Shown piece after piece: positions 941 to 26,422 of a DNA stretch of 64,000 nucleotides; position 1 is the first letter of the stretch; each line of letters opens with the position of its first letter. Position numbers and translations under genes: made by a program. The DNA comes from Blastococcus sp. CT_GayMR16 (GTDB taxonomy: Bacteria > Actinomycetota > Actinomycetes > Mycobacteriales > Geodermatophilaceae): positions 124,001 through 188,000 of the forward strand of contig NZ_SPQK01000001.1 in assembly GCF_004570875.1 (NCBI RefSeq), given 5' to 3'. The notes below the pieces were generated by a model. It was not told the origin of the DNA and ran no database searches. It was given only the letters and a program-made list of their open reading frames with translations.

Positions 941-1079
941 CACTGAGGCACGGGGAAGGCACGGTCCGGGGCCTGCCGCCCGCCTGACCAGCGCAGATGA
1001 CTGTCAAGAGCCCTCGCCTTCCAAGCTGGCCATGCCGGTTCGATCCCGGTCACCCGCTCTCGGCAGTGACCAGCCCGGG
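941..1079 (+). repeat. Direct repeat R1 with tRNA-Gly 3' fragment (att-like)
   Basis: Positions 1016-1059 match the 3' part of a tRNA-Gly(UCC): anticodon loop CTTCCAA, T-arm GGTTCGATCCC and acceptor end CACCCGCTC. The 5' half cannot be folded: no GCGGGTG-type acceptor strand or D-arm is present upstream. So this is a gene fragment and not a functional tRNA. The same 44-bp core (three differences), plus about 75 bp upstream and 15 bp downstream of recognisable similarity, recurs in the same orientation at 26288-26422. Integrases that use tRNA genes commonly leave 3'-end copies at element ends, so this is read as an att-type remnant. Confidence 0.65.
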
Positions 1080-1253
1080 CCGATCAAGCCCGCACGCGGT
1101 GCCGCGGGTCCTCGACCGTGAACCGGTCAGCCACGGGACGAAGCAGGTTCAGACCAGAGCGGTCCGGCAGCGCGCGAGCATGTCGCGACGTACCCGACCT
1201 CGCCGCGGGAGAGCGGCGAAAGGATTTTCCTGCTCCAGTCCGCGCGGCGCGGC

Positions 1254-2261
1254 TCAGCCCCTCAGGTCGGTCACGACGGTCCGCCGGACGTCGTCGGACA
1301 GCGGTCCCTTGACGTACAGCTGAAGGCGCGTGAACACATCGCCATAGCGGCGCTGGATCTCTGCGGCGACCTTGTCGGGCTCCGCGACGACCGCGACGGC
1401 GTCGAGCAGTTCGTCATCGACGAGATCGCCCATCTCCCGCCAGCGGCCCGCCTTGGACATCACGTTCAGGTCGGTCTGCAGATCGCCCCATCCATGAAGG
1501 TCCAGGACCGGCCTGTAGGCCGGTGTGGAGGCGTAGAAGGCGAGCTGCTCCTTGGTCGCCTGCTTCACTGCTGCCATTTCCCGCTCGTCTGCTCCGGTAA
1601 CGACGAATGGCATGCCGCCCACCTCGAAGCCGTCCATGGACTTGCCCGCCGACGCGCGGCCGGCCGCGACGAGGGGCAGCGTCACTTCGCGCAGATAGCG
1701 CTCCGTCGTGAACCCATGGCACAGCAGCCCGTCACCCACCTGGCCGGCCACCTGGGTCATTGCCGCGCCCACTCCGGCGAGCAGGATGCCAGGCGTTCCG
1801 TGCGGGTTAGGGCCCGGATTGAACATCGGTGTCATCAGCGTGTGCCGGTAGAACTCGCCCTCGAAGTCGAGCGGGACACCCTCGTGCCAGGTCCGCCAGA
1901 TCGCTCGGATCGCCGTCACGAGCTCACGCATGCGAGCCGCCGGCTGCGACCAGGGCATCGAGAAGCGACGGGTGATGTGCGCCTTCACCTGCGAGCCGAG
2001 GCCCAGCAGGAACCGGCCCTCCGACAGCAGGTGGAGGTCGTTGGCGGTGACCGCGAGCGTCATCGGTGATCGGGCGAACGCGACGGCGATGCCCGTGCTG
2101 ATTTGCGCCCGCGACGTGGCGGACGCGACGAGGGCGGCGGCGAGGAAGGGGTTGTGCGCTGCCTCGATCAGGGAAACACCGTCGTACCCCTGTTCCTCGA
2201 TATGCCGGGCGGTCTGGAGCACCCGCTCCGGGGCCACGTCGAGCTGGTAGTCGACCTTCAT
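1254..2261 (-). CDS. LLM-class F420-dependent oxidoreductase (TIGR03617-like)
   Basis: This 335-residue protein has the bacterial luciferase-like fold. The N-terminal strand MKVDYQLDVAPERVLQTAR, the central SEGRFLLGLGSQVKAH block and the ILLAGVGAAMTQVAG segment are typical of actinobacterial F420-dependent LLM proteins of the TIGR03617 type. Such enzymes transfer hydride between reduced F420 (or flavin) and a substrate; the substrate here is unknown. It is the last gene of the leftward catabolic arm, 230 bp beyond the SDR, with a GAGAGG ribosome-binding site before the ATG at 2261. It may have its own promoter in that gap. Family call strong, substrate unknown. Confidence 0.88.
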   Translation of the reverse strand: MKVDYQLDVAPERVLQTARHIEEQGYDGVSLIEAAHNPFLAAALVASATSRAQISTGIAVAFARSPMTLAVTANDLHLLSEGRFLLGLGSQVKAHITRRFSMPWSQPAARMRELVTAIRAIWRTWHEGVPLDFEGEFYRHTLMTPMFNPGPNPHGTPGILLAGVGAAMTQVAGQVGDGLLCHGFTTERYLREVTLPLVAAGRASAGKSMDGFEVGGMPFVVTGADEREMAAVKQATKEQLAFYASTPAYRPVLDLHGWGDLQTDLNVMSKAGRWREMGDLVDDELLDAVAVVAEPDKVAAEIQRRYGDVFTRLQLYVKGPLSDDVRRTVVTDLRG

Positions 2262-2491
2262 CTGTCAGAACCTCTCTGGGGCAGTACTGATGGGCAGTCG
2301 TCGACCGCTGCTGGAGCGGCGGCGGTGCCTGCGCTCCTGCTGCACGCTCGTCAGGACGCGGTGCAGGCCCGGGTGAACTCGAGTCTTGTTCGCAGAATCA
2401 GACGAGCGATGCCGACCCAATCCCGGGTTGACAGCCACGGTGGCCGACAGAGCCACGACCCTCCAGCGCGTTGCCACGGTTCCGCCGCCGG

Positions 2492-3238
2492 TCAGCCAGC
2501 CATCGTGAGTCCACCGCTCACGCTGAGAACCTGCCCGGTGATGAACGAGGCGGAGTCCGAAGCGAAGAACAGGACGGCCGCCGCCACCTCGTCGGGCTGC
2601 GCGAGGCGACGAAGGGGGATGGCGCGGATCAGGGCAGCCTGCATGCGGTCGGGCAGACTCCGGAAGAGCGGTGTGTCCGTCGGTCCTGGGCACACCGCAT
2701 TGACGGTGATCCCGTACCGCGCGGTCTCCCGCGCCAACGCTTTGCTGAAGGCGATCAGACCCCCTTTGGCCCCGGCGTAGACGACCTCACCCGAACTGCC
2801 GACGCGTCCGGCGTCACTCGCGATGTTGACGATCCGGCCGGGCGCGTCGCGCTGCACCATCCGTTCCAGGAAGACGCGGCTGACATCGACCGGCGCCATG
2901 AAGTTGAGCGCGAGGAGGTGGTCCCAGAGGTCACGCGAGTTGTCGAGGAAGGGCTCCACGAGGTCCCAGCCGGCCGCGTTGACGACGATGCTGACCGGCC
3001 CGAGGGCCTGCTCGACCGCATCCGCGAGGTGCGCGACGTCCTGCCGGTCGGTCAGATCGACCTCGATGGCGACGACTCCCTCGCCCAGACTCTCGGCAAC
3101 CCGCTGCGCCCCGGCACCGTCCCTGTCCAGGATGGCCACGTGTGCGCCCGAGCCGGCCAGTGCCTCGACGACGGCCCGGCCGATCCCCGACGCGCCCCCC
3201 GTCACGACGGCCGTCCGGCCGTTCAGGTCGACCCTCAC
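2492..3238 (-). CDS. SDR oxidoreductase, BadH-like 3-hydroxyacyl-CoA dehydrogenase candidate
   Basis: This 248-residue classical short-chain dehydrogenase has the nucleotide-binding motif TGGASGIG near residue 14, NAAG near 90, and the catalytic YAGAK (YxxxK) with an upstream Ser in NIASDAGRVGSSG. The C-terminus GQVLSVSGGLTMAG is typical of FabG/BadH-like enzymes. The GTG start at 3238 overlaps the stop of the metallo-beta-lactamase gene in a GTGA junction, so the two are translationally coupled. Beside a BadI-like hydrolase, oxidation of a 2-hydroxy cyclic acyl-CoA to the 2-keto thioester is a reasonable inference. General FabG-type activity is the alternative. Confidence 0.85.
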   Translation of the reverse strand: MRVDLNGRTAVVTGGASGIGRAVVEALAGSGAHVAILDRDGAGAQRVAESLGEGVVAIEVDLTDRQDVAHLADAVEQALGPVSIVVNAAGWDLVEPFLDNSRDLWDHLLALNFMAPVDVSRVFLERMVQRDAPGRIVNIASDAGRVGSSGEVVYAGAKGGLIAFSKALARETARYGITVNAVCPGPTDTPLFRSLPDRMQAALIRAIPLRRLAQPDEVAAAVLFFASDSASFITGQVLSVSGGLTMAG

Positions 3239-4293
3239 GCGGCAGCTCCCCCCGGCGACCCGTAGCGGTGCTCCCCGTCCTCCACAGTGAGGGCGAGCCT
3301 CCCCTGTGCGACCAGGAGATCGAGGTGCGTGACCGTTTCGCAGATCGCGAGCATCTGGTTGAACGGATCCAGATCGGACAGGAGCCTCTCCCGGCGCGTC
3401 CACCGCAGCCTTCCGGCGATGTCGAAAGCCGTGGCGGCCCCGCCCGTGACGGCGGTCTCGGTCTGCTCCAGCCGCGCGCCATGATGGGCCACGAGCTCGT
3501 CGATCCTCCGATGAACACTCGGCGTGGTGGGCCCGTGCGCCGGGAGCAGCATCGCATCGGGCCGCGCGCGCACCACCGCGAGCGACCGCAGGTAGTCGCC
3601 CAGCGGGTCGGGCGAGAGCACGGGCTCGAAGCCGATCGAGGGCGTGATGCTCGGCAGGACGTGGTCACCCGCGAACAGCAGCTTCCCCTCGACGTCGTGG
3701 AACACGACGTGGCCGCGGGTGTGCCCGGGCGTCGGGACGACGTCCAGGACCCGTCCGTCGACCGGGATGACATCGCCGTGGTGGAGCCACGAGTCGGGGT
3801 ACTCGAAGTCCTTCGGGTTGACGTCTTCCAGCCTCCCCATCGCGGACAGCCGGTCGGCGATCGCCCCCGCTCCCCCACGACGAAGATGCAGCAACTGGTG
3901 CTGCAGCGGTTCGCGCGCAGGGTCTTGCGCGGCGCGGATCGCCGGGAGCTCCCCCGCACCGAGGGCGACGGGCGCACCGAACTCCCGGCGCAGCAGGATC
4001 GCCTGCGTGTAGTGATCGCGATGGACATGGGTGATCAGGAACCGTCGCACGTCCGTGAACGCCTTCCCCAGGACGTCCAGGGCCTGTCGCAGGCGCTCGC
4101 GGGCATCGTCGACGGCCCATCCGGAGTCCACGAGCACGAGGTCCTCGTTGGCCATGAGCGCATAGACGTTCACCGCCCGCAGGCCGTCGTTCGGCAGCGG
4201 CAGGGGAATCCGGTACACGCCGGGGGCCACCTCGAAGACGCCCGGTTGCTCCCAGTCCGCGTCGCCGTCCGGCCGCACCCGGAGCGAGGTCAC
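3235..4293 (-). CDS. Metallo-beta-lactamase-fold hydrolase
   Basis: This 352-residue MBL-fold protein has the metal site THVHRDH, a following GDH segment (LLFAGDHVLPS) and a late PAHGP histidine, so two metal ions are expected. A C-terminal helical extension after about residue 260 resembles the winged-helix-like tail of the LACTB2/glyoxalase II group. The GTG start at 4293 overlaps the BadI-like stop (GTGA); longer upstream reading would run through the neighbouring gene with wrong composition. In a CoA-thioester pathway it could hydrolyse a thioester or lactone. This is inferred from context. Confidence 0.82.
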   Translation of the reverse strand: MTSLRVRPDGDADWEQPGVFEVAPGVYRIPLPLPNDGLRAVNVYALMANEDLVLVDSGWAVDDARERLRQALDVLGKAFTDVRRFLITHVHRDHYTQAILLRREFGAPVALGAGELPAIRAAQDPAREPLQHQLLHLRRGGAGAIADRLSAMGRLEDVNPKDFEYPDSWLHHGDVIPVDGRVLDVVPTPGHTRGHVVFHDVEGKLLFAGDHVLPSITPSIGFEPVLSPDPLGDYLRSLAVVRARPDAMLLPAHGPTTPSVHRRIDELVAHHGARLEQTETAVTGGAATAFDIAGRLRWTRRERLLSDLDPFNQMLAICETVTHLDLLVAQGRLALTVEDGEHRYGSPGGAAA

Positions 4294-5129
4294 GGCGGTG
4301 GCCCGCCGGCCGAGGCGGACCCGGGCCGGAACCGGCGGAAGTCGGGCGGCCGCTTGTCGTTGAAGGCCGTCAGGCCCTCGCGCGCTTCCTCGGACGCGAC
4401 GAAGAGGTCGAGGGTGTCCCAGGCCATCGAGCCGATGCCGGCGATGGACTCGCTGTCGGCGTTGAAGGAGTGCTTGAGCACCTTCAGGGCGGTCGGGCTC
4501 TTCGCGAGCATGATGTCGGCCCAGCGCCTGACCTCGGCCGCCAGCTCGGCAGCCGGCACCACCGTGTTCACCAGGCCCCACGCCTCCGCCGTGCGGGCGG
4601 AGTGCTGTTCGCAGAGGTACCAGATCCGGCGGGCGCGCTTCTCGCCGACGATCCGGGCCAGGTAGGCGGTGCCGAGGCCGGCGTCGAACGAGCCCACCTT
4701 GGGACCCGCCTGCCCGAACGTGGCGTGCTCGGCGGCGATCGTGAGGTCACAGATGACGTGCAGCACGTGCCCGCCGCCCACCGCCATGCCGTTGACCGCC
4801 GCGATGACCGGCTTCGGGATGTCGCGGACCACTCGATGCAGGGCTTCGATCTCGAACAGCCCCGAGGCGCTCGGCCCGTAGTCACCGGTCTCCTGCCGCT
4901 GCTTCTGGTCGCCGCCGACGCAGAAGGCTCGGTCACCGGCGCCCGTCAGGGCGACGACGCCGACGGTGCTGTCGGCCCAGGCGGTCTTGAAGGCCCAGAT
5001 GAGTTCGTCGATCGTCTGCGCCCGGAATGCGTTCAGCCGGTCCGGGCGGTCGATGGTGATCCAGGCGAGTCCGCCCTCGACCTCGTACCGGACGTCGGTC
5101 AGGTCATCGGGACCTGCCGGGCGCGTCAC
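4290..5129 (-). CDS. Crotonase-family BadI-like 2-ketocyclohexanecarboxyl-CoA hydrolase (copy 1)
   Basis: This 279-residue crotonase resembles Rhodopseudomonas BadI and the related MenB. Shared blocks are RPDRLNAFRAQT, GAGDRAFCVGGDQ (oxyanion loop), GGGHVLHVICDLTI, FGQAGPKVGSFDAGLGTAYLAR and RARRIWYLCEQ. BadI opens the ring of 2-ketocyclohexanecarboxyl-CoA by a reverse Dieckmann reaction to pimeloyl-CoA; MenB runs the forward ring closure. The GTG start at 5129 overlaps the LLM stop (GTGA). A second copy lies at 21833-22630, also directly behind an LLM gene. No men genes are nearby, which favours ring cleavage over menaquinone synthesis. Confidence 0.83.
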   Translation of the reverse strand: MTRPAGPDDLTDVRYEVEGGLAWITIDRPDRLNAFRAQTIDELIWAFKTAWADSTVGVVALTGAGDRAFCVGGDQKQRQETGDYGPSASGLFEIEALHRVVRDIPKPVIAAVNGMAVGGGHVLHVICDLTIAAEHATFGQAGPKVGSFDAGLGTAYLARIVGEKRARRIWYLCEQHSARTAEAWGLVNTVVPAAELAAEVRRWADIMLAKSPTALKVLKHSFNADSESIAGIGSMAWDTLDLFVASEEAREGLTAFNDKRPPDFRRFRPGSASAGGPPP

Positions 5130-6166
5130 GCGCGACCACCGAAGGTGTCGATGATCGCGTCGAGGTTCTCGCTGAACCGCTCCGGCGACAGCCCGAAGCT
5201 CGGCGAGTACAGCAGGGCGTCGTCGTACAGGCCGTCGAAGACGGCCTCGAACCTCTGCCTCGCCTCGTCGGGCGGTCCGGTGACCGCCATGAGGTCGACG
5301 AGCTCGTCGGGCACCGCCGCGATCATCCCGGCTTCGTCACGGCGTGCCCACGCCGCGCGGATCTCGTCCAGATGCCGCTCCAACCCGTGCAGCGCGAAGA
5401 CGCCGGCATAGCTCTTGACGACGGCGTAGAACGCGATCTGCGCCTTCGCGTCGTTGCGGGCCTTCTCGACGTCGTCATGGATGGAGCAGATGACGAACCC
5501 GGCGATCGGGATCTCGAGGTCGCCGCGGTCGGTGACCTTCGTGCCGGTGGCCAGTGCCGGGCGGACGACCTCCTCCACGTACCGCCGCGTGAAGATGGGA
5601 TGTCCGACGAGGCCGTCGGCGACCCGGCCCGCGGCCTCCACCATCCGGGGATTGACGCCGGCGAGATAGACGGGGATGTCACTGCGCAGGGGCGGCCGGA
5701 CCTCGACCGTCGGCTTGAGACGGACGTTGTAGAAGCGGCCCTGGTGCTCGACGCCTCGGTCGTCCATCGTCCAGAACCGGCGCAGCAAGGGGACGAGCTC
5801 CTCCACCCGGGTCGCCGGCGCCTCCGGGTCGACACCGTGCCAGTCCCGCTGCATCGTGCGGGTGCCGGTACCGAGTCCGAGGACGAGCCTGCCTCCGGAG
5901 AGCTCGTCGAGGTCCCGCGCCTCTGCCGCCAGCACCAGCGGCGAGCGGCCGACCGCGTAGGCGATGCCGCTCCCCAACGTCACGCGCTCGCTGGCCTGCG
6001 CCATGGCCGCAAGGGAGACGATCGCCGTGCGCTCGTAGAACTCGGTCGTCCAGACCGAGTCCAGGCCGGCGGACTCCGCTCGGGTGGTCAGGCGTGTGGC
6101 GGTGGCGATGTCTCCGCCCAGCAGGACGATGCCCAGCCGTGAGGAGGCAGCGTCCGGACGCGTCAC
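5126..6166 (-). CDS. LLM-class flavin/F420-dependent oxidoreductase
   Basis: This 346-residue luciferase-like monooxygenase-family protein has the ITGSG-like block VTLGSGIAYAVGRSPLVLA, then LDELSGGRLVLGLGTGT and the barrel-closing VYLAGVNPRMVEAAGRVADG. The GTG start at 6166 overlaps the stop of the PaaK-like gene (GTGA). A longer upstream frame lies inside that gene and is discarded. It immediately precedes the BadI-like hydrolase with a further overlap, so the two are likely co-translated. It may act as an F420-dependent dehydrogenase/reductase on a cyclic acyl intermediate; substrate unproven. Confidence 0.87.
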   Translation of the reverse strand: MTRPDAASSRLGIVLLGGDIATATRLTTRAESAGLDSVWTTEFYERTAIVSLAAMAQASERVTLGSGIAYAVGRSPLVLAAEARDLDELSGGRLVLGLGTGTRTMQRDWHGVDPEAPATRVEELVPLLRRFWTMDDRGVEHQGRFYNVRLKPTVEVRPPLRSDIPVYLAGVNPRMVEAAGRVADGLVGHPIFTRRYVEEVVRPALATGTKVTDRGDLEIPIAGFVICSIHDDVEKARNDAKAQIAFYAVVKSYAGVFALHGLERHLDEIRAAWARRDEAGMIAAVPDELVDLMAVTGPPDEARQRFEAVFDGLYDDALLYSPSFGLSPERFSENLDAIIDTFGGRA

Positions 6167-7383
6167 CACGTGCGCTCGTCGATGATCATGGGACCTCCCT
6201 GTGGAAGCGTTCCTGCCGGCACGATCCGTACTTCCGCCCGGACCTTGGCGGCGTCCCGGAAGGCACCCGTCAGGACTGCCTCCGGCACCGCACACGGGGA
6301 CTCCACCTCGAGGACGGCGGAATCCTGGTTTCCGTCCCGGCTGACGACCAGCCGCCCGGCGGTGGCGCCCAGCGCCCGGGTCACGTGGTGGTCGTAGACG
6401 AACATTCCGCGCACCTTGACGCCGGGACCGACCCGGCCCAGTACGCCCTCGAGACGCCGTGACGTCCGGCCGCAGCGGCATCCGGCCGGCAGCTCACGGG
6501 ACAGGTCGCCGGTGCCGAGGCGGAGCATCGGGTAGATGTCGGAGAAGGTCGTCACCACGACCTCGCCCGTCTCCCCCTGCGGGAGCGGTGCCCCCGTGGC
6601 GGGGTCGCAGATCTCGACGTGGTGGCTCTCGCCGAGGTGATAGCCGTCCCTGGCGCCGCACTCGTAGGCGATCAGCCCCAGGTCCGCGGTGCCGTACGTC
6701 TGCGACACCCGCCCGCCGCTGCGCTGCTCCAGTTGTTCACGGAGGTCGGCCGTCATGCGCTCGCCGGCGACCAGCGCCGTGCGGAACCGCCACGGCGGCT
6801 GTGCCCGGGTGAGCAGGATGTCGAGAAACGACGGCGTGCCGATGTAGCCGCTCACCGGGACGTCGGCGAGCAACTGCAGCTGTTGTTCGGTGTTGCCCAC
6901 CCCCGCGGGGACGACGACGCAGCCCAGGCTGACGGCGCCCGAGTCGAACGCGTGCCCGGCCGGGGTCAGGTGGTAGGAGAACGTGTTGAGCACGATGTCG
7001 CCCGCGCCGAACCCCGCCGCGTGCAGCGCACGGGCGAAGCCGCCGACATCGCTGCGACCGTGCTGCGGGTCGTAGATGGGGCCGGGCGACATGAAGAGCC
7101 GGGGGATCTCCCCGAGGCCGACCGTGAGCAGCCCGCCGAACGGAGGATCTGCGGCGTGCATGGTCTGCAACTCGCGCTTGGGGAGCACCGGCAGCAGTGC
7201 GAGGTCCTGCACGGAGGTGATGTCGGCCGGCTGCACACCCGCCGCCTCGAGCCACCGCCGCCAGCCCGGCGCACGTTCCCACGCCCGCGCCAGCACACCC
7301 GGGAGCCGCGCCTCGATGTCGCCGCGGCGGGTCGCCTCGTCGCGTGTCTCCAGTTCGTCGAAGGGCGGAGCCACGACGGTCAT
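6163..7383 (-). CDS. PaaK-like phenylacetate-CoA ligase family adenylating enzyme
   Basis: This 406-residue protein is of the PaaK/COG1541 adenylate-forming type, shorter than ordinary acyl-CoA synthetases. Family blocks are the N-terminal LPVLPKRELQ, RLFMSPGPIYDP where most relatives have a TSGTTG-like P-loop, a QTYGTADLG motif near the active site, GEVVVTTF, YPMLRLGTGDLS and a C-terminal RGMFVYDH hinge. The ATG at 7383 overlaps the LivF stop (ATGA) with a GAGGTGG ribosome-binding sequence. It likely activates an imported ring acid to its CoA thioester. The altered P-loop is a known variant in PaaK-like proteins but leaves activity open. Confidence 0.82.
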   Translation of the reverse strand: MTVVAPPFDELETRDEATRRGDIEARLPGVLARAWERAPGWRRWLEAAGVQPADITSVQDLALLPVLPKRELQTMHAADPPFGGLLTVGLGEIPRLFMSPGPIYDPQHGRSDVGGFARALHAAGFGAGDIVLNTFSYHLTPAGHAFDSGAVSLGCVVVPAGVGNTEQQLQLLADVPVSGYIGTPSFLDILLTRAQPPWRFRTALVAGERMTADLREQLEQRSGGRVSQTYGTADLGLIAYECGARDGYHLGESHHVEICDPATGAPLPQGETGEVVVTTFSDIYPMLRLGTGDLSRELPAGCRCGRTSRRLEGVLGRVGPGVKVRGMFVYDHHVTRALGATAGRLVVSRDGNQDSAVLEVESPCAVPEAVLTGAFRDAAKVRAEVRIVPAGTLPQGGPMIIDERTW

Positions 7384-8174
7384 CCCAACCACCTCTTCCG
7401 TCGTCGATACGTCTTCACGTCCCGGAAGCTGCGGCGCGACCCCACGCCCGCGAGGCCGAGGTAGAACTCCGCGACGTCCTGATTCGCCCGCAGCTCCTCA
7501 GCCGTGCCGTCGAGCACGATCCGCCCGTCTTCCAGCACGTAACCGTGCTGGGCGATGCGCAGGGCGGCATCGGCGTTCTGCTCCACGAGGAGCACGGTCA
7601 GGCCCTCGTCGGCGTTGAGGCGCTGCACGATCTCGAAGATCTCCTCGACCAGCATCGGCGCCAGACCGAGGCTCGGTTCGTCGAGGAGAGCGAGCTTGCA
7701 GTTCGACATGACCGCCCGGCTGATGGCGAGCATCTGCTGCTCGCCGCCGGAGAGCAGGCCGGCCCGCTGGGCGCGCCGTTCCTTGAGCCTCGGGAAGTAG
7801 GCGTACGGAACGTCGAGTGCCTGCCGAGCGGCACGCAGGGAGCCGCGCCGATAGCCACCGACCAGGAGGTTCTGCTCCACGGTCAGGTGCTCGAAGACCC
7901 GCCGTCCCTCGAGCACCTGGACCACGCCTCGTTCGACGACCTGCGAGGCCGGCATCCGCAACAGGGACTTGCCCTGCCAATTCACCTCGCCCCGGACGAC
8001 CTCGCCGCGCTCGGCGGCGAGCAGGCCCGAGATGGTCTTGAGCACGGTCGACTTGCCGGCGCCGTTGGCGCCGAGGAGGGCCACGATCGAGCCCTCCTCG
8101 ACGCGCAACGAGACTCCCTTGAGGACGAGCGCCACGCGGTTGTAGACGACCTCCACGCCGTCAAGGGTCAACAT
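7380..8174 (-). CDS. livF: Branched-chain amino acid-type ABC transporter ATPase LivF
   Basis: This 264-residue ABC ATPase has Walker A GANGAGKST (near residue 34), signature LSGGEQQML, Walker B LALLDEPSLGLAP and the following H-loop region. The order and length are those of LivF. With LivG, LivH, LivM and the binding lipoprotein it completes a five-part HAAT-family importer. Such importers often carry aromatic or alicyclic acids when placed in catabolic clusters. It starts 6 bp after the binding-protein stop and overlaps the PaaK-like ligase, consistent with uptake coupled to CoA activation. The C-terminal tail is rich in Arg/Lys. Confidence 0.9.
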   Translation of the reverse strand: MLTLDGVEVVYNRVALVLKGVSLRVEEGSIVALLGANGAGKSTVLKTISGLLAAERGEVVRGEVNWQGKSLLRMPASQVVERGVVQVLEGRRVFEHLTVEQNLLVGGYRRGSLRAARQALDVPYAYFPRLKERRAQRAGLLSGGEQQMLAISRAVMSNCKLALLDEPSLGLAPMLVEEIFEIVQRLNADEGLTVLLVEQNADAALRIAQHGYVLEDGRIVLDGTAEELRANQDVAEFYLGLAGVGSRRSFRDVKTYRRRKRWLG

Positions 8175-8180
8175 GACGGC

Positions 8181-9440: not shown

Positions 9441-9504
9441 GTTTCCTCCTTGGGATTCGCAACGAGGGAGAGTTGCGACCAGCACCGACACGGACCGCGC
9501 GGCG

Positions 9505-10563: not shown

Positions 10564-10567
10564 GTCG

Positions 10568-14186: not shown

Positions 14187-14211
14187 TGCGGCTCCCACGG
14201 CCTCCTCACCC

Positions 14212-15252: not shown

Positions 15253-15269
15253 GCCGATTCCTCTTCGTC

Positions 15270-16418: not shown

Positions 16419-16442
16419 CAGCACCTCCTTTGTGTGACCGGG

Positions 16443-16472: not shown

Positions 16473-16493
16473 CCATCCGGTCAAAGTTTTTCC

Positions 16494-16523
16494 TTGACGT
16501 CGATTCCCGACTCGGTGTTAATG
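16494..16523 (+). promoter_or_regulatory. Rightward promoter, likely giving a leaderless transcript
   Basis: TTGACG (16494-16499) and TTAATG (16518-16523) have an 18-bp spacer. The GTG start of the thioesterase is at 16531, about where transcription would begin. There is no purine-rich ribosome-binding site in between. The mRNA is therefore probably leaderless, a common arrangement in actinobacteria. Confidence 0.6.
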
Positions 16524-16530
16524 TGCGGCC

Positions 16531-17843: not shown

Positions 17844-17856
17844 CGAGGAGCCTTCC

Positions 17857-18273
17857 GTGACCACCACCGCCGCACGCCCCGCAGCACCGCCACGCCCCCT
17901 GCCCGACGAGGACAGCCGCGAGTACTGGGCGGCCCTCCGCGAGCACCGGATCACTCTGCAGGCCTGCACGTCCTGCAACCGGCGACGCTTCCCCGCCACT
18001 CCGTCCTGTCCCTACTGCGCGCATCCGGAGTGGAGCGAGGAGGAGGCGGCGGGCACCGGCACCGTCTACTCCTACATCGTCGTTCACCGAGCCTTCGATG
18101 CGGCATTCGCAGCCGACGTCCCGTACACCGTCGCGACCGTCGATCTCGACGGAGGCGGACGCATGGTGGCCCGCATGGACACCACCCCGGCGATCGGCGC
18201 TCGCGTCGCGCCGGACTTCGTCGACCACCCCGAATGGACCGAGCTCCGCTTCCGAGACCAGGAGACAGCGTGA
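17857..18273 (+). CDS. DUF35 zinc-ribbon/OB-fold protein, thiolase partner
   Basis: This 138-residue protein has an N-terminal rubredoxin-like zinc ribbon, CTSCNRRRF with CPYC following, then an OB-fold ([11 protein letters not shown] and [13 protein letters not shown]). DUF35 proteins form complexes with SCP2/Ltp-type thiolases or aldolases and are often required for their activity. The likely partner is encoded at 15270-16418 on the other arm. The start is GTG 17857. The stop overlaps the acyl-CoA dehydrogenase start. A four-Cys zinc site is intact. Confidence 0.87.
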
Positions 18274-19460: not shown

Positions 19461-19491
19461 CCGATGTTGCCCGTGGCTGTCGGCTGGGCAA
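19451..19491. promoter_or_regulatory. GTTGCCC repeats upstream of tetR, possible operator
   Basis: GTTGCCC occurs at 19451-19457 and 19466-19472 and its complement GGGCAA at 19486-19491. This lies upstream of the TetR-family gene and partly in the acyl-CoA dehydrogenase end. The TTGCCC/GGGCAA pair forms a 26-bp inverted repeat. TetR regulators bind such palindromes, but this one is only a sequence pattern. Confidence 0.25.
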
Positions 19492-19528
19492 GCCTCGCTG
19501 CAACCCGGCGTTCAGTTGAGGAGTAGAC

Positions 19529-20161
19529 GTGTCCACGGTTGAAGTTGTCGACGAAGAGGGTCCGGGCAGGGTCGAACGACGTCGTAACCGGAAGGTGCTG
19601 GACATCCTGACGGCTACCGCGGACGTGCTCGCCGAGCGCGGCTACCACCAGACGAACCTCGACGAGATCGCCGAGCGGCTGGACCTCACGAAGGCCTCGC
19701 TCTACCACTACTTCCCGAGCAAGGACGAACTCGTCACTGCTTGTCTCGAGTGGGTCGGGAAACTGGTCAACGACCGGCTGATGGCGACCGCGCAGAACCG
19801 CGAAGGAACTGCCAGCGAGCGGCTGACGGCACTCATCCGGGTGCAGCTCGACAGCATCGTGCGCGAGCACCCGCAGATGGCACAGCTGTTCCTGCAACCC
19901 CTGGACTGGCCGGAGTCCTACCGCGAGCGCACCAAGGAACTGCGCAAGGAGCACGACGAGGCCTTCCGCACGGTCATCCGCGACGGCATCGCCAGCGGTG
20001 AGTTCGTCGTCGAGGACGAGTCGACGGCGGTGCACTGCCTGCACGGCGCCATGAACTACGTGCCCGTCTGGTTCCGGGCGAAGAGGAAGAAGGACTACGA
20101 GACGATGTATGAGACGACGGCGGCGAGCCTGTTGAGACTGTTCCGTCCACCCGCTCCATGA
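19529..20161 (+). CDS. TetR-family transcriptional regulator
   Basis: This 210-residue repressor has an N-terminal helix-turn-helix (NLDEIAERLDLTKASLYHYFPSKDEL, quoted in part here as TKASLYHYFPSKDEL) and a helical ligand domain. The GTG start at 19529 follows GAGGAG. It heads a four-gene overlapping string with SDR, LLM and BadI-like genes (ATGA junctions). It probably represses this string and perhaps the divergent promoters at 16.45-16.52 kb, with an acyl-CoA as likely effector. Ligand identity is not visible. Confidence 0.9.
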   Translation: MSTVEVVDEEGPGRVERRRNRKVLDILTATADVLAERGYHQTNLDEIAERLDLTKASLYHYFPSKDELVTACLEWVGKLVNDRLMATAQNREGTASERLTALIRVQLDSIVREHPQMAQLFLQPLDWPESYRERTKELRKEHDEAFRTVIRDGIASGEFVVEDESTAVHCLHGAMNYVPVWFRAKRKKDYETMYETTAASLLRLFRPPAP

Positions 20162-20928
20162 GCTCGGCGTTGCTCGACGACCTCTTCGGTCTCGCGGGGC
20201 GACGCGCCGTGGTCACCGGCGCCAGCCGGGGCATAGGCGCTCGCGCGGCCCAGGCGCTCGACGCGGCCGGGGCGACGGTGGCACTGGTCGCCCGCAGCGA
20301 GGACCAGCTCCACCAGGTCGCGAAGACACTCACGAACGTGCCCCTCGTGGTGCCGGCCGACCTGAGGAGCGAGGCCGGTGTCGACGAGGTGGCGGCGGCG
20401 GTCGCCGACGCGTGGGGTGGCGCCGACATCCTAGTCAACAACGCCGGCCTGTCCCGTCCCGCCCCTGCTCTCGAGCTGCGGACGGAGGACTGGGACGCCG
20501 TACTCGACGTCAACCTGCGGAGCGTCTTCACCCTCACGCGCGCGCTGGCCGCCGGGATGCTGGACCGGGGCTGGGGGCGCGTGATCAACGTCAGCAGCGT
20601 CCTGAGCCTGGTGGGCGACGCCTGGGCCGCCCCCTACGCGGCATCGAAAGCAGGGCTCAACGGCCTGACGCGGTCGCTGGCCGTCGAGTGGGCGAGCAGA
20701 GGAGTCACGGTCAACGCCCTCTGCCCGGGTTGGGTCGACACCGACATGGTCGCCGACCTGCGAGCCGACCCGAATTTCGACAAGCGCGTGCTCCGCCGTG
20801 TGGCCGCGCGCAGGTGGGGGGTCCCGGAAGACATGGATGGCGCCCTTCTCCTGCTCGCGGCGCCGGCATCGTCCTACCTCACGGGCCAGACACTCGTGGT
20901 GGACGGCGGACTGGCGGCGGGGTGGTGA
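20158..20928 (+). CDS. SDR oxidoreductase (second 3-hydroxyacyl-CoA dehydrogenase candidate)
   Basis: This 256-residue classical SDR has TGASRGIG near residue 19, NNAG near 95, Ser in NVSSVLSLVG and YAASK as catalytic YxxxK. The C-terminus TGQTLVVDGGLAAGW is FabG-like. The ATG overlaps the tetR stop and its own stop overlaps the LLM start. It is a second candidate for oxidising a hydroxyacyl-CoA, beside the SDR at 2492-3238. It is only moderately alike in visible motifs, so a different substrate or stereochemistry is plausible. Confidence 0.87.
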   Translation: MSSALLDDLFGLAGRRAVVTGASRGIGARAAQALDAAGATVALVARSEDQLHQVAKTLTNVPLVVPADLRSEAGVDEVAAAVADAWGGADILVNNAGLSRPAPALELRTEDWDAVLDVNLRSVFTLTRALAAGMLDRGWGRVINVSSVLSLVGDAWAAPYAASKAGLNGLTRSLAVEWASRGVTVNALCPGWVDTDMVADLRADPNFDKRVLRRVAARRWGVPEDMDGALLLLAAPASSYLTGQTLVVDGGLAAGW

Positions 20929-21836
20929 CCGCCCTCGGCGTGATGCTGCCCATCGCGGACCCGGTCGGAACCGGCACCGCCGACATCCCCGCCGCGGCCC
21001 GCCACCTGGAACGCGTGGGCGCCGACGTCGTGTGGGCCGGTGATCACCTCGCCTTCCACACACCTGTCGTGGAGGCGACCGTGACGCTCGCCATGGCGGC
21101 CGCGGTCACGGAGCGGGTCCGACTCGGCTTCGGCGTGATGCTCCTCGCGCTGCGGCAGCCTGCCTGGGCGGCCAAGCAGGTGTCCTCCCTGCAGGCCGTG
21201 TCCGGGGGGCGGGTCGTCCTGGGCATCGGCGTGGGCGGCGAGAACCCCGAGGAGTGGGCGGCCGGCGGGGTGCCGACGCAGGAACGCGGTCAACGGAGCG
21301 ACGCCGTCCTCGGCGCCCTGCCGGATCTCCTTTCTGGCCGGCGCGCCACCGTCCCCGCGCCCTACGACCTGCAGGTTCCCGCCCTGCTCCCGACCGGTGG
21401 CATGCCACCGGTCTGGATCGGCGGCCGCAGCGAGCGGGCACTGCGGCGGGCCGTGCGGTTCGGCCATGGGTGGCTCGGGATGTGGGGAGACGAGCGTCGT
21501 GTGCTCCAGGCGCGCGAGCAGCTGCATCAGCTCGCCGAGCAGGAGAACCGTCCCGTGCCGCGCGTCGGTCTGCACGTCTTCGTGCACGTGAGCGAGGACG
21601 ACACCGGCCGCGACGAGGCTGCGGCGTTCGTGAGCGGGCAGTACCGGCTTCCTTTCGAGAAGGTCGAGCGCTACGTCGCAGTCGGCACCGCTGACGAGGT
21701 CACGGCACACCTGGCCGGCCTCGTCGCGAGCGGCGTCGAGGAGTTGCTGCTGCATCCCGCCGCCGTCGACCACCACCGGCAGTACGACCTGCTGGCGCCC
21801 GTGATGGCGCGTCTGCGCAAGGGCGACCTGCGATGA
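20925..21836 (+). CDS. LLM-class flavin/F420-dependent oxidoreductase
   Basis: This 303-residue luciferase-like protein has ADVVWAGDHLAFHTP, RVRLGFGVMLLALRQP, SGGRVVLGIGVGGENPEEW and PPVWIGGRSERALRR. It is a different LLM subgroup from the enzymes at 1254 and 5126, closer to F420-dependent glucose-6-phosphate dehydrogenase/MSMEG-type proteins. The GTG start at 20925 overlaps the SDR stop and its stop overlaps the BadI-like start. The LLM-BadI pairing is repeated from the left arm. Confidence 0.86.
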   Translation: MTALGVMLPIADPVGTGTADIPAAARHLERVGADVVWAGDHLAFHTPVVEATVTLAMAAAVTERVRLGFGVMLLALRQPAWAAKQVSSLQAVSGGRVVLGIGVGGENPEEWAAGGVPTQERGQRSDAVLGALPDLLSGRRATVPAPYDLQVPALLPTGGMPPVWIGGRSERALRRAVRFGHGWLGMWGDERRVLQAREQLHQLAEQENRPVPRVGLHVFVHVSEDDTGRDEAAAFVSGQYRLPFEKVERYVAVGTADEVTAHLAGLVASGVEELLLHPAAVDHHRQYDLLAPVMARLRKGDLR

Positions 21837-22630
21837 CGGGACAGCCGGACCTCACCGACGTCGTGTACGAGGTCGACGACGGCCTCGCGTGGATCACCAT
21901 CAACCGGCCGGAGCGCTACAACGCATTCCGCAACCGCACCATCGAGGAGATCGTCGACTGCGTGAAACGCGCGTGGGCAGATCCCTCCGTGGGGGTTCTG
22001 GCGCTCACCGGTGCAGGCGACAAGGCGTTCAGCTCCGGCGGCGACGTGAAGCAGCGTCAGCTCACCGGTGACTACGGCCCGAGCCGCTCAGGCCTGTTCG
22101 AACTCGAGTCGATGCACCGCGTGCTCCGCGACGTGCCGAAGCCCGTCATCGCCGCCGTGAACGGCCTCGCCATCGGCGGCGGGCACGTGCTGCACCTGCT
22201 GTGCGACCTGACCATCGCGAGCGACAACGCCCGCTTCGGCCAGGTCGGGCCGAACGTGGGGTCGTTCGACGCGGGTTTCGGCACCGCGTACCTCGTGCGG
22301 GTCGTCGGCGAGAAGCGTGCGCGCCAGATCTGGTACCTGTGCGAGCAGTACGACGCGCACACCGCTCTCGACTGGGGTCTGGTGAACGCTGTCGTCCCTC
22401 TCGCCGAGTTGCGGCCCGAGGTACGGCGCTGGGCGGACGGAATGCTGAGCAAGAGCCCGACGGCCCTCAAGGTGCTCAAGCACTCCTTCAACGCCGCCAG
22501 TGAGGCGATCGCCGGGCGGGCCCAGCTCGCCCTCGACACGCTGGACCTCTACATGGCCACGGACGAGGCCGGCGAAGGCGTCGCGGCGTTCACCGAGCGG
22601 CGGCCCCCGCGGTTCTCCGGCTACCGCTGA
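21833..22630 (+). CDS. Crotonase-family BadI-like ring hydrolase (copy 2)
   Basis: This 265-residue paralogue of the protein at 4290-5129 has the same BadI/MenB blocks: RPERYNAFRNRT, GAGDKAFSSGGDVKQRQ, GGGHVLHLLCDLTI, FGQVGPNVGSFDAGFGTAYL and RARQIWYLCEQYDAHTA. Where copy 1 reads GGDQ, this one reads GGDV in the oxyanion region, a possible functional difference. The ATG overlaps the LLM stop. It ends tail-to-tail with the CoA-transferase gene, overlapping it by 10 bp. Two paralogues could serve differently substituted rings or successive ring cleavages. Confidence 0.83.
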   Translation: MTGQPDLTDVVYEVDDGLAWITINRPERYNAFRNRTIEEIVDCVKRAWADPSVGVLALTGAGDKAFSSGGDVKQRQLTGDYGPSRSGLFELESMHRVLRDVPKPVIAAVNGLAIGGGHVLHLLCDLTIASDNARFGQVGPNVGSFDAGFGTAYLVRVVGEKRARQIWYLCEQYDAHTALDWGLVNAVVPLAELRPEVRRWADGMLSKSPTALKVLKHSFNAASEAIAGRAQLALDTLDLYMATDEAGEGVAAFTERRPPRFSGYR

Positions 22631-23640
22631 GCCGCGGGCGCGGCGGCCAGCGGCCCGGCGGCGCCGCCGCCGCCGGGGGTGTACTGCGCAGGGTGGCCGA
22701 TCGTCGCCGTGCCGGCGGTTCGATGGACCGTCCCCCGGTGCGCGAAGGCCTCCGCGCCCACCGCCTCCCAGGGCATGCGGACGGCGCTGGCCGGCACGTC
22801 GGCCGCCTGTAGCCGTGCCAGCAGTTCGTCCCTCGGCCACCCGGCGACCGCATCCGCGACGACCGCGCGAAGGCGCGGATCGTCACACCGCTGCTCGTAC
22901 GTCGCCCCCGCCAGGTCGTCGAGCCCCACAACCTGACAGAAACCGCGCCAGAAGTGCTGCTCGTGCACGATGCCGAGCGCCAGAGCCCGTCCGTCAGAAC
23001 AGGCGTAGACGCCGTAGTGGGGCGTTCTCGTGAAGACGTCGCCCCCGTCCGCGAGGTCGAGCCGGGGCAGCGTCCACGTCAGCGCGACATCGGTCATCGA
23101 GACATCGATGAACCGGCCGCCCTGGCCGCGGGCGACGGCGAACAGGGCAGCGCACGCGGCGAAGGCCGCGAACAGCCCCGACGCCATGTCGGCCACGGGC
23201 AGCACGGGAACGGCGGGCACGTGCGTCGGGTCGACGGCCAGGATCCCGGCCTCCGCCTGGTAGTTCACGTCGTGACCGGGAGCACCGGCCCGGTCCCCCG
23301 TCTGCCCGTAGCCGGAGATCGAGACGTACACCGAGTCCGGGTACTCGCCCCGGACGTCGCCGTACCCCAGACCGAGCCGGGCCGCGACACCCGGGCGCCA
23401 TCCCTCGACGACGACAGCGGCGTCCCTCACCAACTCGCGCCCGCGGGCGCGGCCGGCCTCGCTCTTGAGGTCGAGGCACTCGCTGGTCTTGCCCTGGTTG
23501 ACCGCTGCGAACAGGCGGGGGAACGCCCGTGCCGGGTCACCGCCCGGCGGCTCGACCTTGACCACGTCAGCACCGAGTTGCGCCAGGAGCAGCGTCGCGT
23601 ACGGACCGGGCAGGTTCGAGCTGAAGTCGATGACCCGCAC
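22621..23640 (-). CDS. CaiB/BaiF family (type III) CoA-transferase
   Basis: This 339-residue protein has the family N-terminus VIDFSSNLPGPYATLLLAQLGADVVKVEPPGGD and the catalytic Asp in GHDVNYQAEAGILA. Family members move CoA between carboxylic acids without ATP. The GTG at 23640 is used here, but the frame stays open upstream with the family-like PLLGGVRVIDF and no ATG/GTG/TTG. The true start could be a CTG near 23649 or within the preceding gene. It is short for the family (usual length about 380-400), so the C-terminal part is reduced. It forms a leftward pair with the synthetase upstream. Confidence 0.83.
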   Translation of the reverse strand: MRVIDFSSNLPGPYATLLLAQLGADVVKVEPPGGDPARAFPRLFAAVNQGKTSECLDLKSEAGRARGRELVRDAAVVVEGWRPGVAARLGLGYGDVRGEYPDSVYVSISGYGQTGDRAGAPGHDVNYQAEAGILAVDPTHVPAVPVLPVADMASGLFAAFAACAALFAVARGQGGRFIDVSMTDVALTWTLPRLDLADGGDVFTRTPHYGVYACSDGRALALGIVHEQHFWRGFCQVVGLDDLAGATYEQRCDDPRLRAVVADAVAGWPRDELLARLQAADVPASAVRMPWEAVGAEAFAHRGTVHRTAGTATIGHPAQYTPGGGGAAGPLAAAPAAQR

Positions 23641-23668
23641 ACCTCCCAGGAGCGGAGGTGGTGCCGGC

Positions 23669-25225
23669 TCAGCCGACGCGGCGATCGTGCCCCTCCCAGT
23701 GCGGCTCGCGAAGGGCGCGGCGGAAGACCTTGCCCACCGCCGTCTTCGGGATCTCCGCCACGACCTCGAGGAAGAGGGGCTTCTTGTAGTTGGCCAGGCC
23801 GGCGTCGCGACAGTGCTGCTGCAGTTCCTCCAGGGTGAGCGTCGCGTCCGGAAGCAGGGACACGCACGCCATCACCGCCTCCCCCCACTTCTCGTGGGGC
23901 ACCCCCACGACGGCGACCTCGTTGACCGCGGGGTGGGCCGCGATGACGTCCTCGACCTCCCGCGGGTAGACGTTCAGCCCGCCGCTGATCAGCATGTCGT
24001 TCTTGCGGTCGACGATCGTGATGTACCCGTCGGCGTCCTGGGTCGCCAGGTCACCCATGCGGAACCATCCGTCGACGTAGACGGCGGCGGTCGCTTCCGG
24101 CTGGTTCCAGTAGGCCTGCGACACGGCGTCGCCGCGGACCATCAGCTCCCCGATCTCACCGACAGCGACCGGGTTGCCGTCCGGGTCGGCGATCCGCACA
24201 TCGAAGAAGGGGTTCGGCCGGCCGCAGGAGCTCAGCCGCTCCGGGTGGCTCTTGAGCGCCTCGACGTGCTCGTCGGGGTACAGGATCGTGTTGTAGATCG
24301 TGCCGCCCTCCGTGGAGCCGTAGCCCTGGAGGAAGATCGGGCCGAACACGTCGATGGCCCTGCGCAGCACCGTCGGCGCAATGGGCGCACCCGAGTAGTA
24401 GATGCAGCGCAGGCTACTGAGGTCGCTCGACGCGGCAGCGGGATGGCTCGCCAGCGCATTGATGATCGCGGGCGCGAGGATCGTGTGGGTGATCCGCTCC
24501 TGTTCCACCAGCTCGAAGAACCGTTCCGGGTCGAACTGGGACATCATCACCGACCGGGCCCCCCGGAACAGGGCCGGGGAGGTGAGGATCCCGGACTGGT
24601 GCGACAGCGGACCGACATGGAGGAGGGCCGAATCCGGTCCGACCTCGCCCATGATGGTCGCCAGGATGTTTCGGTAGGTGTTCACCCAGTTGCGGTGGCT
24701 GTACACAGCACCCTTGTAGCGGCCGGTCGTGCCGGACGTGTGGAAGACGAGGTAGGGCTCGTCCTCCCCGAGGGGTTCGGGCTGGTACGGCTTGGCTTCG
24801 GCAACCAGCTGCTCGTAGTCGCCACTGTCCCGGAGACCGACGACGCGCATCTTCGGCACGGCGCCGGTGTCGACCAGTTGCTGCACCTGTGCCGTGAACT
24901 CCGGCCCGGTGATGACGACCGTCGGCGTCACGTCCTCGAGCACGAAGGTGAACTCCCGGGAAGAGTCCCGGGAGTTCAGGCGCCCGCGCACGGCGCCGAT
25001 CATCGACACGGCGTTGTCGATCTCGACCCACTCGCTGCAGTTGTTCATCAGCGCCACGACGCGGTCCCCCGGCTGGACACCGAGCTCCACCAGCGCCCCG
25101 GCCAGCCGGCAGCTCCGGTCCCACATCTCCGTGTACGTGGTCGTCCCGCGGTCGTCGACCAGGGCCAGCCGGTCCTTGAACCGTTGCACTGCCGAGTAGA
25201 CGAAGTCGTGCACCAGAACGGCCAT
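23669..25225 (-). CDS. Acyl-CoA synthetase (AMP-dependent, FadD-like)
   Basis: This 518-residue adenylate-forming ligase has P-loop FHTSGTTGRYKGAVYSH near residue 170, GYGSTEGGT, GWFRMGDLATQD and the hinge IVDRKNDMLISGG. The C-terminal PKTAVGKVFRRALRE holds the catalytic Lys. The ATG at 25225 is preceded by GGGAGAACGC; an upstream ATG at 25270 lies in the promoter region and is rejected. It would make the CoA thioester of the pathway substrate or of a side-chain acid. A TTGACG-18-TAGCGT promoter lies just upstream. Confidence 0.88.
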   Translation of the reverse strand: MAVLVHDFVYSAVQRFKDRLALVDDRGTTTYTEMWDRSCRLAGALVELGVQPGDRVVALMNNCSEWVEIDNAVSMIGAVRGRLNSRDSSREFTFVLEDVTPTVVITGPEFTAQVQQLVDTGAVPKMRVVGLRDSGDYEQLVAEAKPYQPEPLGEDEPYLVFHTSGTTGRYKGAVYSHRNWVNTYRNILATIMGEVGPDSALLHVGPLSHQSGILTSPALFRGARSVMMSQFDPERFFELVEQERITHTILAPAIINALASHPAAASSDLSSLRCIYYSGAPIAPTVLRRAIDVFGPIFLQGYGSTEGGTIYNTILYPDEHVEALKSHPERLSSCGRPNPFFDVRIADPDGNPVAVGEIGELMVRGDAVSQAYWNQPEATAAVYVDGWFRMGDLATQDADGYITIVDRKNDMLISGGLNVYPREVEDVIAAHPAVNEVAVVGVPHEKWGEAVMACVSLLPDATLTLEELQQHCRDAGLANYKKPLFLEVVAEIPKTAVGKVFRRALREPHWEGHDRRVG

Positions 25226-25276
25226 GCGTTCTCCCTGAGATCGACCCTGCGATGTCGGTGGTCCGCGCAAGAAGCG

Positions 25277-25463: not shown

Positions 25464-25605
25464 CTGCCGCACGCCAGGCTGCACACGCTGCGGCACTCAG
25501 GCAGCCTCACGCTCACCCGCGGTGTTCGCTGAAGCTGGACGTGATCCTCGGCCACACCTCGATCGCCATCACCGGCGACATCCACGGCCACGTCCCCCCC
25601 CCACG
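25464..25605 (+). pseudogene. Tyrosine recombinase (phage/ICE integrase) C-terminal remnant
   Basis: One frame reads LPHARLHTLRHSGSLTLTRGV with the integrase HTLRHS motif (His-x-x-Arg) and then hits a stop. A shifted frame continues with LDVILGHTSIAITGDIHGHV, the LGHxSIxxTxxxYxH block whose final Tyr, normally the nucleophile, reads His here (DIHGHV). The rest of the gene is missing upstream, and the end abuts an IS481 remnant. The gene is dead. It sits about 750 bp before tRNA-Gly repeat R2, the expected place for the integrase of an element that used that site. Confidence 0.75.
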
Positions 25606-25612
25606 TCGCCCG

Positions 25613-26225
25613 ATAGGTGTATTGCCCAGCAGCGTTGTTGACGGCGAGACGGCTGATGGGGGCTGTCCGCCGAGCGCGGTGTGGCTGCGGTGATGGTTGT
25701 AGGTGTGCAGCCAGCCGGCCGACGAATTGGGCGGCCTACATCCGTCCCTTCGACAGCTGTGCACGTAGTTGTAGCCAACCTGACGGCCGGCCAGCTGCTC
25801 GGTGCGGGTGTGGTTGTGCTGGGCCAAGCCTTTGCCGTGGACGCGCCAGCCACCACCGGGACGGATGACGGCGAGGTTCTTGACGTCGACGTGCACCAAC
25901 TCGCCCGGGTGGGCGCGCTCGCAGCGGCGGAACAGCTCCCCGGTCGGCCGGTCCAACCAGGCCAGCCGGTGCATGCCGTGCCGGCTGCAGCACTGCGTGC
26001 ACCGTCGACGGCGCCAGTCCAACCAGCGGCGCGATCCGGGCCGGCCCCAGCTTGCGCTGCGAGCGCAGCGCCAGCACCTGGGTCTCGAGCGCGGGCGGCG
26101 TCTTGCCTGGTACCCGGTGCGCGCGACTTGGCCGGTCCGACAGCCCGGCTGGTCTCTCGGCCCGTCAGCGGGCCAGCCACTTGTAGCCCCGCCGCCCGAG
26201 CGCGGCCGCGGTTGCAGCAACGAAC
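25613..26225 (-). pseudogene. Degraded IS481-family transposase
   Basis: Pieces of an IS481 transposase appear in order across three frames: FVAATAAALG and GYKWLAR (HTH), VLALRSQRKLGPARIAPLVG, HPGELVHVDVKNLAVIRPGG (first catalytic Asp), VGYNYVHS, and finally YNHHRSHTALGGQPP and ISRLAVNNAAGQYT at the C-terminus. The middle of the catalytic core between YNYVHS and YNHHRSH is deleted, and several shifts and a stop interrupt it. It cannot be active. Its 3' end touches the broken integrase, so insertion of this IS may have destroyed the integrase C-terminus. Terminal inverted repeats are not identifiable. Confidence 0.8.
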
Positions 26226-26287
26226 TGCGGCATTCGACTGGTAGCGGCCGAGCGACAGCGAGGAACCGCTCTTCCTGTCGCCGTGTG

Positions 26288-26422
26288 CACTGAGGCACGC
26301 GGAGGGCACGGCCGGGGCTCGACTTGGCGCCGACCAGCAAAGATGGCGCTCCGGCTCCCAAGCCTTCCAAGCTGGCCATGCCGGCCCGATCCCGGTCACC
26401 CACTCCAGGTACTGGCCAGCCC
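26288..26422 (+). repeat. Direct repeat R2 with tRNA-Gly 3' fragment (att-like)
   Basis: Positions 26362-26405 repeat the tRNA-Gly(UCC) 3' core seen at 1016-1059 with three changes (T-arm GGCCCGATCCC and acceptor CACCCACTC). Upstream similarity, including CACTGAGGCAC and GGCACGG, reaches back to 26288. The T-loop change shows this is not a functional tRNA. It marks the junction between the catabolic region with its dead integrase and the conjugative element to the right. Confidence 0.65.

Follow-up and report, generated by a model that had tools for sequence, protein, structure and literature searches.

A catabolic gene cluster of Blastococcus probably stacked at a tRNA-Gly-type attachment site inside a conjugative element at tRNA-Asn

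How did a cluster of ring-acid type catabolic genes come to lie between two fragments of a tRNA-Gly gene in Blastococcus sp. CT_GayMR16? We analyzed a stretch of 64,000 nucleotides (the window), corresponding to positions 124001-188000 of contig C11 (NZ_SPQK01000001.1) in a draft genome of 47 contigs and 4.52 Mb (G000), and compared it with 112 genomes of the family, in which G009-G091 are our handles for other genomes; positions given without a contig are those of the window. An earlier note on this DNA proposed that one element, or two in tandem, had brought the cluster to a tRNA-Gly gene. The comparison points to a different arrangement. The window belongs to an integrative and conjugative element (ICE) integrated at tRNA-Asn, and this ICE probably contains an internal tRNA-Gly-type attachment (att) site at which cassettes lacking an integrase were stacked, the catabolic cluster among them.

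The two repeats, R1 (941-1079) and R2 (26288-26422), are direct repeats as the earlier note had described, 78.3% identical over 138 aligned bases (E = 1e-24 within the window and 3e-23 in a search of the genome). Each holds a 44-bp core corresponding to the 3′ end of tRNA-Gly(UCC), with one difference from the intact gene in R1 and three in R2, while the two cores differ from one another at 4 of 44 positions, one more than previously counted. The upstream extension of the similarity was also borne out: GGCACG motifs and a GACCAGC motif are common to both left arms, and the left arm of R1 aligns with that of R2 and with the left arms of tRNA-Gly elements in relatives. R2 also has a long right arm, absent from the description in the earlier note, to which R1 shows no similarity beyond about 25 bp. 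Together with its core, this right arm matches C11:106583-106781 at 78% over 199 bp, and the core plus downstream sequence of the intact tRNA-Gly in relatives at 75-81%. ARAGORN predicted no tRNA in the window, and therefore neither R1 nor R2 is a gene. We refer to the left arm as P, the core as O and the right arm as P′ (Table 1). Given the near-identical tRNA 3′ core and arms common to occupied tRNA sites elsewhere, the layout of R1 and R2 looks, on sequence, like that of tyrosine-integrase att sites.

As a control, we drew 300 random 139-mers from the window, two of which attained the R1-R2 score (104 bits) elsewhere in the window; a 761-bp pair with 74% identity inside the two BadI-like genes would be a source able to yield such scores. 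A chance repeat was ruled out by the E-values of the R1-R2 match in window and genome, with the two control matches untraced.

Strong copies of the repeat number five genome-wide (E ≤ 8e-15): R1, R2, C11:106592, C11:302402 and C34:44467. The search for further 3′ copies recommended in the earlier note was productive, as C11:106592 (L005) is a third Gly-type copy 17.4 kb to the left of the window. The only intact tRNA-Gly(UCC) among the five, C11:302383-302456, has tRNA-Pro beside it and was expected further left or lost; its actual place is 152 kb rightward from R2, with contig and strand unchanged. Standard 3′-end insertion cannot leave copies upstream, and R1 and R2 are thus misplaced for distal ends of an insertion at this tRNA-Gly. 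Direct insertion of the cluster into the chromosomal tRNA-Gly, as one or two tandem elements in an array moved later by rearrangement, is very unlikely: tandem tRNA-Gly arrays are real in relatives, with three P-O copies beyond tRNA-Gly in G009 and four in G031, but here the intact tRNA-Gly and tRNA-Pro are collinear with G031, the copies stand 152-196 kb away on the wrong (5′) side, and G031 and G012 share the Gly core near the ICE end, while G042 has one after the same gene for a 354-amino-acid (354-aa) protein. About 7.3 kb past the intact tRNA-Gly, the backbone is again collinear with that of a congener. What holds of the original proposal is the involvement of tRNA-Gly-targeting integrative elements, since the repeats look like att sites and the cluster like one member of a short tandem array; what finds no support is the placement of the cluster at a tRNA-Gly gene.

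The fifth copy, C34:44467-44510 (L037), carries a tRNA-Gly core identical at 44/44 positions within another island of the same genome. One flank of that island is marked by tRNA-Ala(ggc) (C34:53713-53787), which adjoins a tyrosine integrase, and the other by a 3′ copy of 40 bp at 32263. The arms of L037 are unlike those of R1 and R2, and an open reading frame (ORF) for an IS110-type transposase begins about 430 bp away.

The boundaries that enclose the window are those of tRNA-Asn. An intact tRNA-Asn (C11:211189-211262, minus strand) adjoins a tyrosine integrase ORF (209828-211078), and 3′ copies lie on the same strand at C11:104421-104459 (100%) and 21804-21841 (97%, one change). The target 3′ end is directly repeated at the two boundaries, one of which has an integrase, and these delimit an ICE of ~107 kb (C11 104.4-211.2 kb) that contains the whole window, so that the conjugative element, previously described as a neighbor in a tRNA-Gly array, in fact encloses the cluster and ends at tRNA-Asn. 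Among its transfer genes, a MobF relaxase scores above the profile cut-off and a coupling protein above two Pfam cut-offs, while a VirB4-like protein scores below cut-off only; the VirB4 assignment is weak, as PF12846 has no match anywhere in the genome. A TadA-like ATPase, below its own cut-off, is encoded in the ICE outside the window. Integrase scans used PF00589 and PF00239 at E ≤ 0.001 and returned no match in C11:104.5-209.8 kb.

Inside the ICE, the Gly-type sites follow one another from left to right as O-P′ (L005), P-O (R1) and P-O-P′ (R2), delimiting unit 1 (C11:106593-125060, ~18.5 kb) and unit 2 (R1 to R2, ~25 kb). Unit 1 runs from O-P′ to P-O with both att sites present; unit 2 has a full right site in R2 and a left site, R1, with little P′ arm. 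The integrase profiles have no match between R1 and R2, and no transfer gene was found among the ORFs scanned, which were part of those present (20 in unit 2, 8 in unit 1); relaxase and coupling protein are positioned to the right of R2. Family matches were obtained for 17 of the 20 cluster ORFs (16 of the 22 picked by the gene caller plus 4 in other frames) and comprise F420/luciferase-like oxidoreductases, BadI/MenB-like hydrolases, coenzyme A (CoA) ligases, short-chain dehydrogenases/reductases, a thiolase-like protein, an acyl-CoA dehydrogenase and a CoA-transferase, to which similarity to a G031 transporter adds ATP-binding cassette (ABC) transporter genes. In unit 1, one of the eight proteins scanned has a Pfam match (DUF7002), and none of the four scanned for defense genes gave a hit.

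Two BadI/MenB-like hydrolases of the cluster, at 4290-5129 and 21833-22630, share 71% protein identity in opposite orientation, and relatives of the former occur in several phyla of the genome collection. When the same catabolic gene was followed elsewhere, the fetched flanks of 80 loci (of 554 found) contained no Gly core at up to 12 substitutions.

We then asked what R1 and R2 correspond to in relatives. The R2 region matches 96 of the 112 family genomes, tRNA gene matches counted in. Among the 30 best-matching loci that were fetched, the right arm comes immediately after an intact tRNA-Gly(UCC) in 22, and in eight, R2 included, it does not. In all eight genomes read at both ends (G009, G018, G021, G022, G031, G083, G087 and G091), tRNA-Gly is followed downstream, on the strand it occupies, by a P-O copy at a distance of 4 kb (G022) to 124 kb (G087). 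Because the right arm follows the intact tRNA-Gly and P-O copies lie downstream, sites of the R1/R2 type appear to be the att sites of a tRNA-Gly-specific element family. Two units of G009 (10 proteins scanned) encode luciferase-like monooxygenases, a fumarylacetoacetate (FAA) hydrolase, a metallo-beta-lactamase-fold protein, a flavin reductase, an alcohol dehydrogenase, an ABC transporter, two regulators and one transposase. G091 has two PF00589 matches in its whole genome, neither near the tRNA-Gly region, so that its unit, too, yielded no integrase. A Gly-type att copy in G031 (L091:1553-1623) was called tRNA-SeC by ARAGORN, which probably mistook an att relic for a gene.

One integrase clade is associated with these sites. 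It comprises 16 copies at 88-100% identity, one of them with an in-frame stop, plus one partial copy at 91%, and all 17 share contig and strand with a Gly-type core about 5-66 kb away; sharing a contig is trivial in one-contig genomes, the distance is not. Copies in three other genomes of two genera are identical to the G083 query over 376 residues, a small helix-turn-helix (HTH) protein precedes the integrase in both loci read (G083, where the two genes span C4:695975-697641, and G018), and several integrase relatives at 41-44% lie on contigs with Gly-type cores. This clade is likely, judging from its association with these cores, to be the integrase of the tRNA-Gly element family. A relative at 65% identity (G021:C1:557637-558835, L142) occupies an unusual position, ending 36 bp upstream, on the 5′ side, of an intact tRNA-Gly.

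The enclosing element is present in congeners with other cargo. G031, a congener assembled in one contig, has this tRNA-Asn island too, with its left 2 kb, right module and integrase region conserved (77-89% DNA identity), and the chromosome past the island is collinear with that of G000 up to tRNA-Pro/tRNA-Gly. Gly-type sites lie inside the G031 island at 1466940, 1497756 and 1522715 with cargo between them that differs from ours, the lone DNA match listed being 405 bp at 68% in an ABC-transporter gene. All 12 G031 cargo proteins scanned have Pfam matches, mostly catabolic or transport: a DmpG-type aldolase, a LigB dioxygenase, an FAA hydrolase, a ring hydroxylase, an ABC transporter, acyl-CoA and aldehyde dehydrogenases, a CoA-transferase, a CoA ligase and a CofH-like radical S-adenosylmethionine protein. 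The ICE of G029 matches ours at 88-93% in the left end, relaxase block, conjugation block and right block and again carries different cargo, some of it resembling C11:56-102 kb of our own genome. No Gly core was found in the 100 kb of the G029 ICE that were read (395-409 kb lying outside that reading), and its left end has lost the core and, judged by eye, retains an apparent trace of the right arm. In G026, G027 and G038, too, tRNA-Asn has integrase or conjugation blocks beside it.

The earlier note had suggested comparing strains without the cluster to find an empty site, and the genus comparison yielded none. Among 16 genomes of the genus, no empty tRNA-Asn site was found: matches to the left flank and to tRNA-Asn fall on separate contigs in 11, two have no match to the tRNA-Asn flank, and in the one-contig cases besides our own, G024 and G031, the flanks are about 46 and 102 kb apart, so that these sites are occupied. 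The stretches next to tRNA-Asn in six congeners likewise contain no empty site.

The Gly-type sites could be dead relics, left when an old tRNA-Gly ICE switched to tRNA-Asn by a change of integrase and retained its earlier att sites and cargo, nothing docking afterwards. An element at tRNA-Gly in G083 does have the relaxase and conjugation blocks of this ICE (67-84% DNA identity) with a different integrase, and there are T-loop changes in the R2 core and an anticodon change in L005. Even so, we think this history unlikely, as the cargo between Gly-type sites at the same place differs between G000 and G031, and therefore later exchange is needed.

The gene next to L005, near the left end of the ICE, speaks for some antiquity of the internal site. 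It encodes the 354-aa protein, an HTH protein by Pfam and zinc-ribbon-like by eye, with homologues in 41 of the 112 genomes. We fetched 30 of these loci, six of them at ≥75% identity; four of the six (G000, G031, G012 and G042, in three genera) have a tRNA-Gly-like core about 100-160 bp past the matched end of the gene, and G012 also retains right-arm sequence. None of the other 24 has a Gly core nearby at up to 9 substitutions, a few of these loci ending shortly past the gene. A tRNA-Asn 3′ copy lies upstream of the 354-aa gene in G000, G031, G012 and G029. The recurrence of the core after this gene points to the Gly-type site as an old part of the ICE end.

Taken together, these observations favor the stacking of cassettes at an internal site of the tRNA-Asn ICE. 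R1 and R2 would be att sites of an element family that targets the tRNA-Gly(UCC) 3′ end in the chromosome, and the ~107-kb ICE would bear a tRNA-Gly-like core near its left end, after the 354-aa gene. At this core, units 1 and 2 would have been stacked by an integrase supplied by a tRNA-Gly element, presumably of the clade described above, and both would now be carried passively whenever the ICE transfers. Since no integrase gene was found in either, the units resemble cis-mobilizable elements (CIMEs) and may be open to recombination by an incoming tRNA-Gly-type integrase.

Several points weigh against this reading. The assembly is a draft of 47 contigs. R1 lacks most of the P′ arm, so that the left end of unit 2 is not a full att site, and the cargo of unit 1 does not look catabolic. 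In G042 the core matches only at the 9-substitution limit and no tRNA-Asn copy appears in the 2.8 kb read on that side, so its element may not lie at tRNA-Asn. The P′ arm of R2 was not found beside the G029 relaxase, and an empty dock, with 354-aa gene, Gly core and relaxase in succession, was not seen in the genomes examined, where the G012 contig stops 19.7 kb after the core and G042 has no backbone match within 76 kb of it. Where listed, the clade integrase is at least 17 kb from the downstream Gly-type copy, unlike the usual adjacency, and our own genome has no clade member (best match 33%). This last point also speaks for entry of the cassettes by RecA-dependent homologous recombination between Gly-type att regions without any integrase, which would produce a similar picture; the core-plus-arm regions are long and 74-88% similar between genomes, reaching 83-84% over 1.1 kb in one locus pair. 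We nevertheless consider the RecA route distinctly improbable, as unit 1 ends in O-P′ and P-O with flanks that change at the core, as site-specific recombination gives.

A broader version of the cassette-stacking model can be offered only tentatively, and we rate it as possible rather than probable. The tRNA-Asn ICE may retain a tRNA-Gly 3′-end mimic as a standing docking bay across genera, with integrase-less catabolic cassettes swapped in from the tRNA-Gly element pool; this would be an integron-like exchange of cassettes for degradation pathways in this actinobacterial family, built from tRNA att sites. Against integron-integrase profiles, both the tRNA-Asn and the tRNA-Gly integrases score far below cut-off.

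Table 1 Coordinates of att-site parts, cargo and ICE genes in the window
Feature	Position	Strand	Remarks
R1 left (P) arm	941..1016	+	motifs TGAGGCACG..GAAGGCACGG and TGACCAGCGCAGATG; AAGGCACG at 956-963
R1 core, 44-bp tRNA-Gly(UCC) 3′ end	1017..1060	+	43/44 identical to C11:302383-302456
R1 right flank	1061..1085	+	right (P′) arm resemblance for about 25 bp only
Ring-acid type catabolic cluster	1254..25270	.	cargo between R1 and R2
R2 left (P) arm	26281..26362	+	GGCACG motifs at 26292-26299 and 26303-26310
R2 core, tRNA-Gly(UCC) 3′ end	26363..26406	+	41/44 identical to intact gene
R2 right (P′) arm	26407..26550	+	inverted CGTGCCTC at 26466-26473, direct GAGGCACG at 26534-26541
MobF/TrwC relaxase with helicase and DnaG-type primase domains	28268..34252	+	Pfam, NCBIfam; 92% to G029 element
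Type III restriction-modification genes	35785..40562	+	carried by ICE; outside matched blocks of G029 element
TraG/TrwB/VirD4-like coupling protein	42126..43646	-	profile matches
Conjugation block: M23 peptidase, weak VirB4-like ATPase, SCO6880-family protein	45933..50142	-	
Wadjet JetA, JetB, JetC, JetD	55068..62468	+	carried by ICE

The conjugation block of Table 1 falls within C11:165608-179069, which is 90% identical to G029. Relatives of the relaxase were found in 548 plasmid records, the best (Nocardioides, Pimelobacter) at 49% over 86% of the query; a close plasmid parent was rejected, as all 548 are below 60% identity. To the left of the ICE, tRNA-Asn sequences also bound C11:21804-104459, a further segment of about 83 kb that has short integrase-like ORFs toward the left end. 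The sequence AAAACCGCAGGTC was noted next to tRNA 3′ copies (loci L113 and L004); it occurs after the tRNA-Asn copy in G029 and after the Gly core on C34, with near variants in G031 and G000, and is possibly an arm motif common to different integrases.

How does this arrangement compare with known systems? Elements of the ICEclc family reportedly carry aromatic catabolism and target tRNA-Gly, and are said to be proteobacterial; they are alike in cargo type and target by description, and we know of none nested in a tRNA-Asn ICE. Integrative and mobilizable elements (IMEs) encode their own integrase. IMEs in conserved ICE genes are likewise smaller integrative elements hosted by a larger ICE, but they target an ICE gene such as traG, whereas here the target is a tRNA-3′-end mimic and no integrase was found in the units (PMC5704250). 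The same source describes the CIMEs of ICESt1-related elements as att-flanked units without integration or transfer genes that stack in tandem and are possibly mobilized in cis (PMC5704250). Our units share the missing integrase and the tandem stacking, and unit 1 the att sites at both ends; CIME accretion is described there at the att site with the chromosomal target gene end, whereas these units occupy an internal tRNA-Gly-like site in an ICE for another tRNA. Also an actinobacterial ICE with an internal att copy, PAISt of Streptomyces turgidiscabies is split by that copy into modules that excise separately or together (PMC4057263). Its inner and outer sites are one target (the bacA 3′ end) served by one integrase, unlike tRNA-Gly inside, tRNA-Asn outside and an inner integrase that is missing. 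The criteria for type IV secretion system-type ICEs of Actinobacteria are an integrase, a MOBF relaxase, a coupling protein and a VirB4/TraC-like component (PMC3218068), for the last of which this ICE has only the match below cut-off; in the text of that source available to us ‘tRNA-Gly’ occurs 0 times and internal docking is not described. Among literature titles and abstracts, in a search that most subscription journals lie outside, we found none describing an ICE at a different tRNA that encloses tRNA-Gly-type sites.

The single ingredients, CIMEs, accretion and modular elements, are thus known; new is the combination of a tRNA-Gly-type docking site inside a tRNA-Asn ICE with exchangeable catabolic cargo. 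The locus offers defined sites and a candidate integrase with which the model can be tested, and it cautions that tRNA fragments distant from their parent gene are not necessarily marks of chromosomal insertion. If the proposed arrangement is true, whole degradation pathways would be portable without an integrase of their own, and cassettes with tRNA-Gly ends would ride an ICE with another target, avoiding competition for a single tRNA site.

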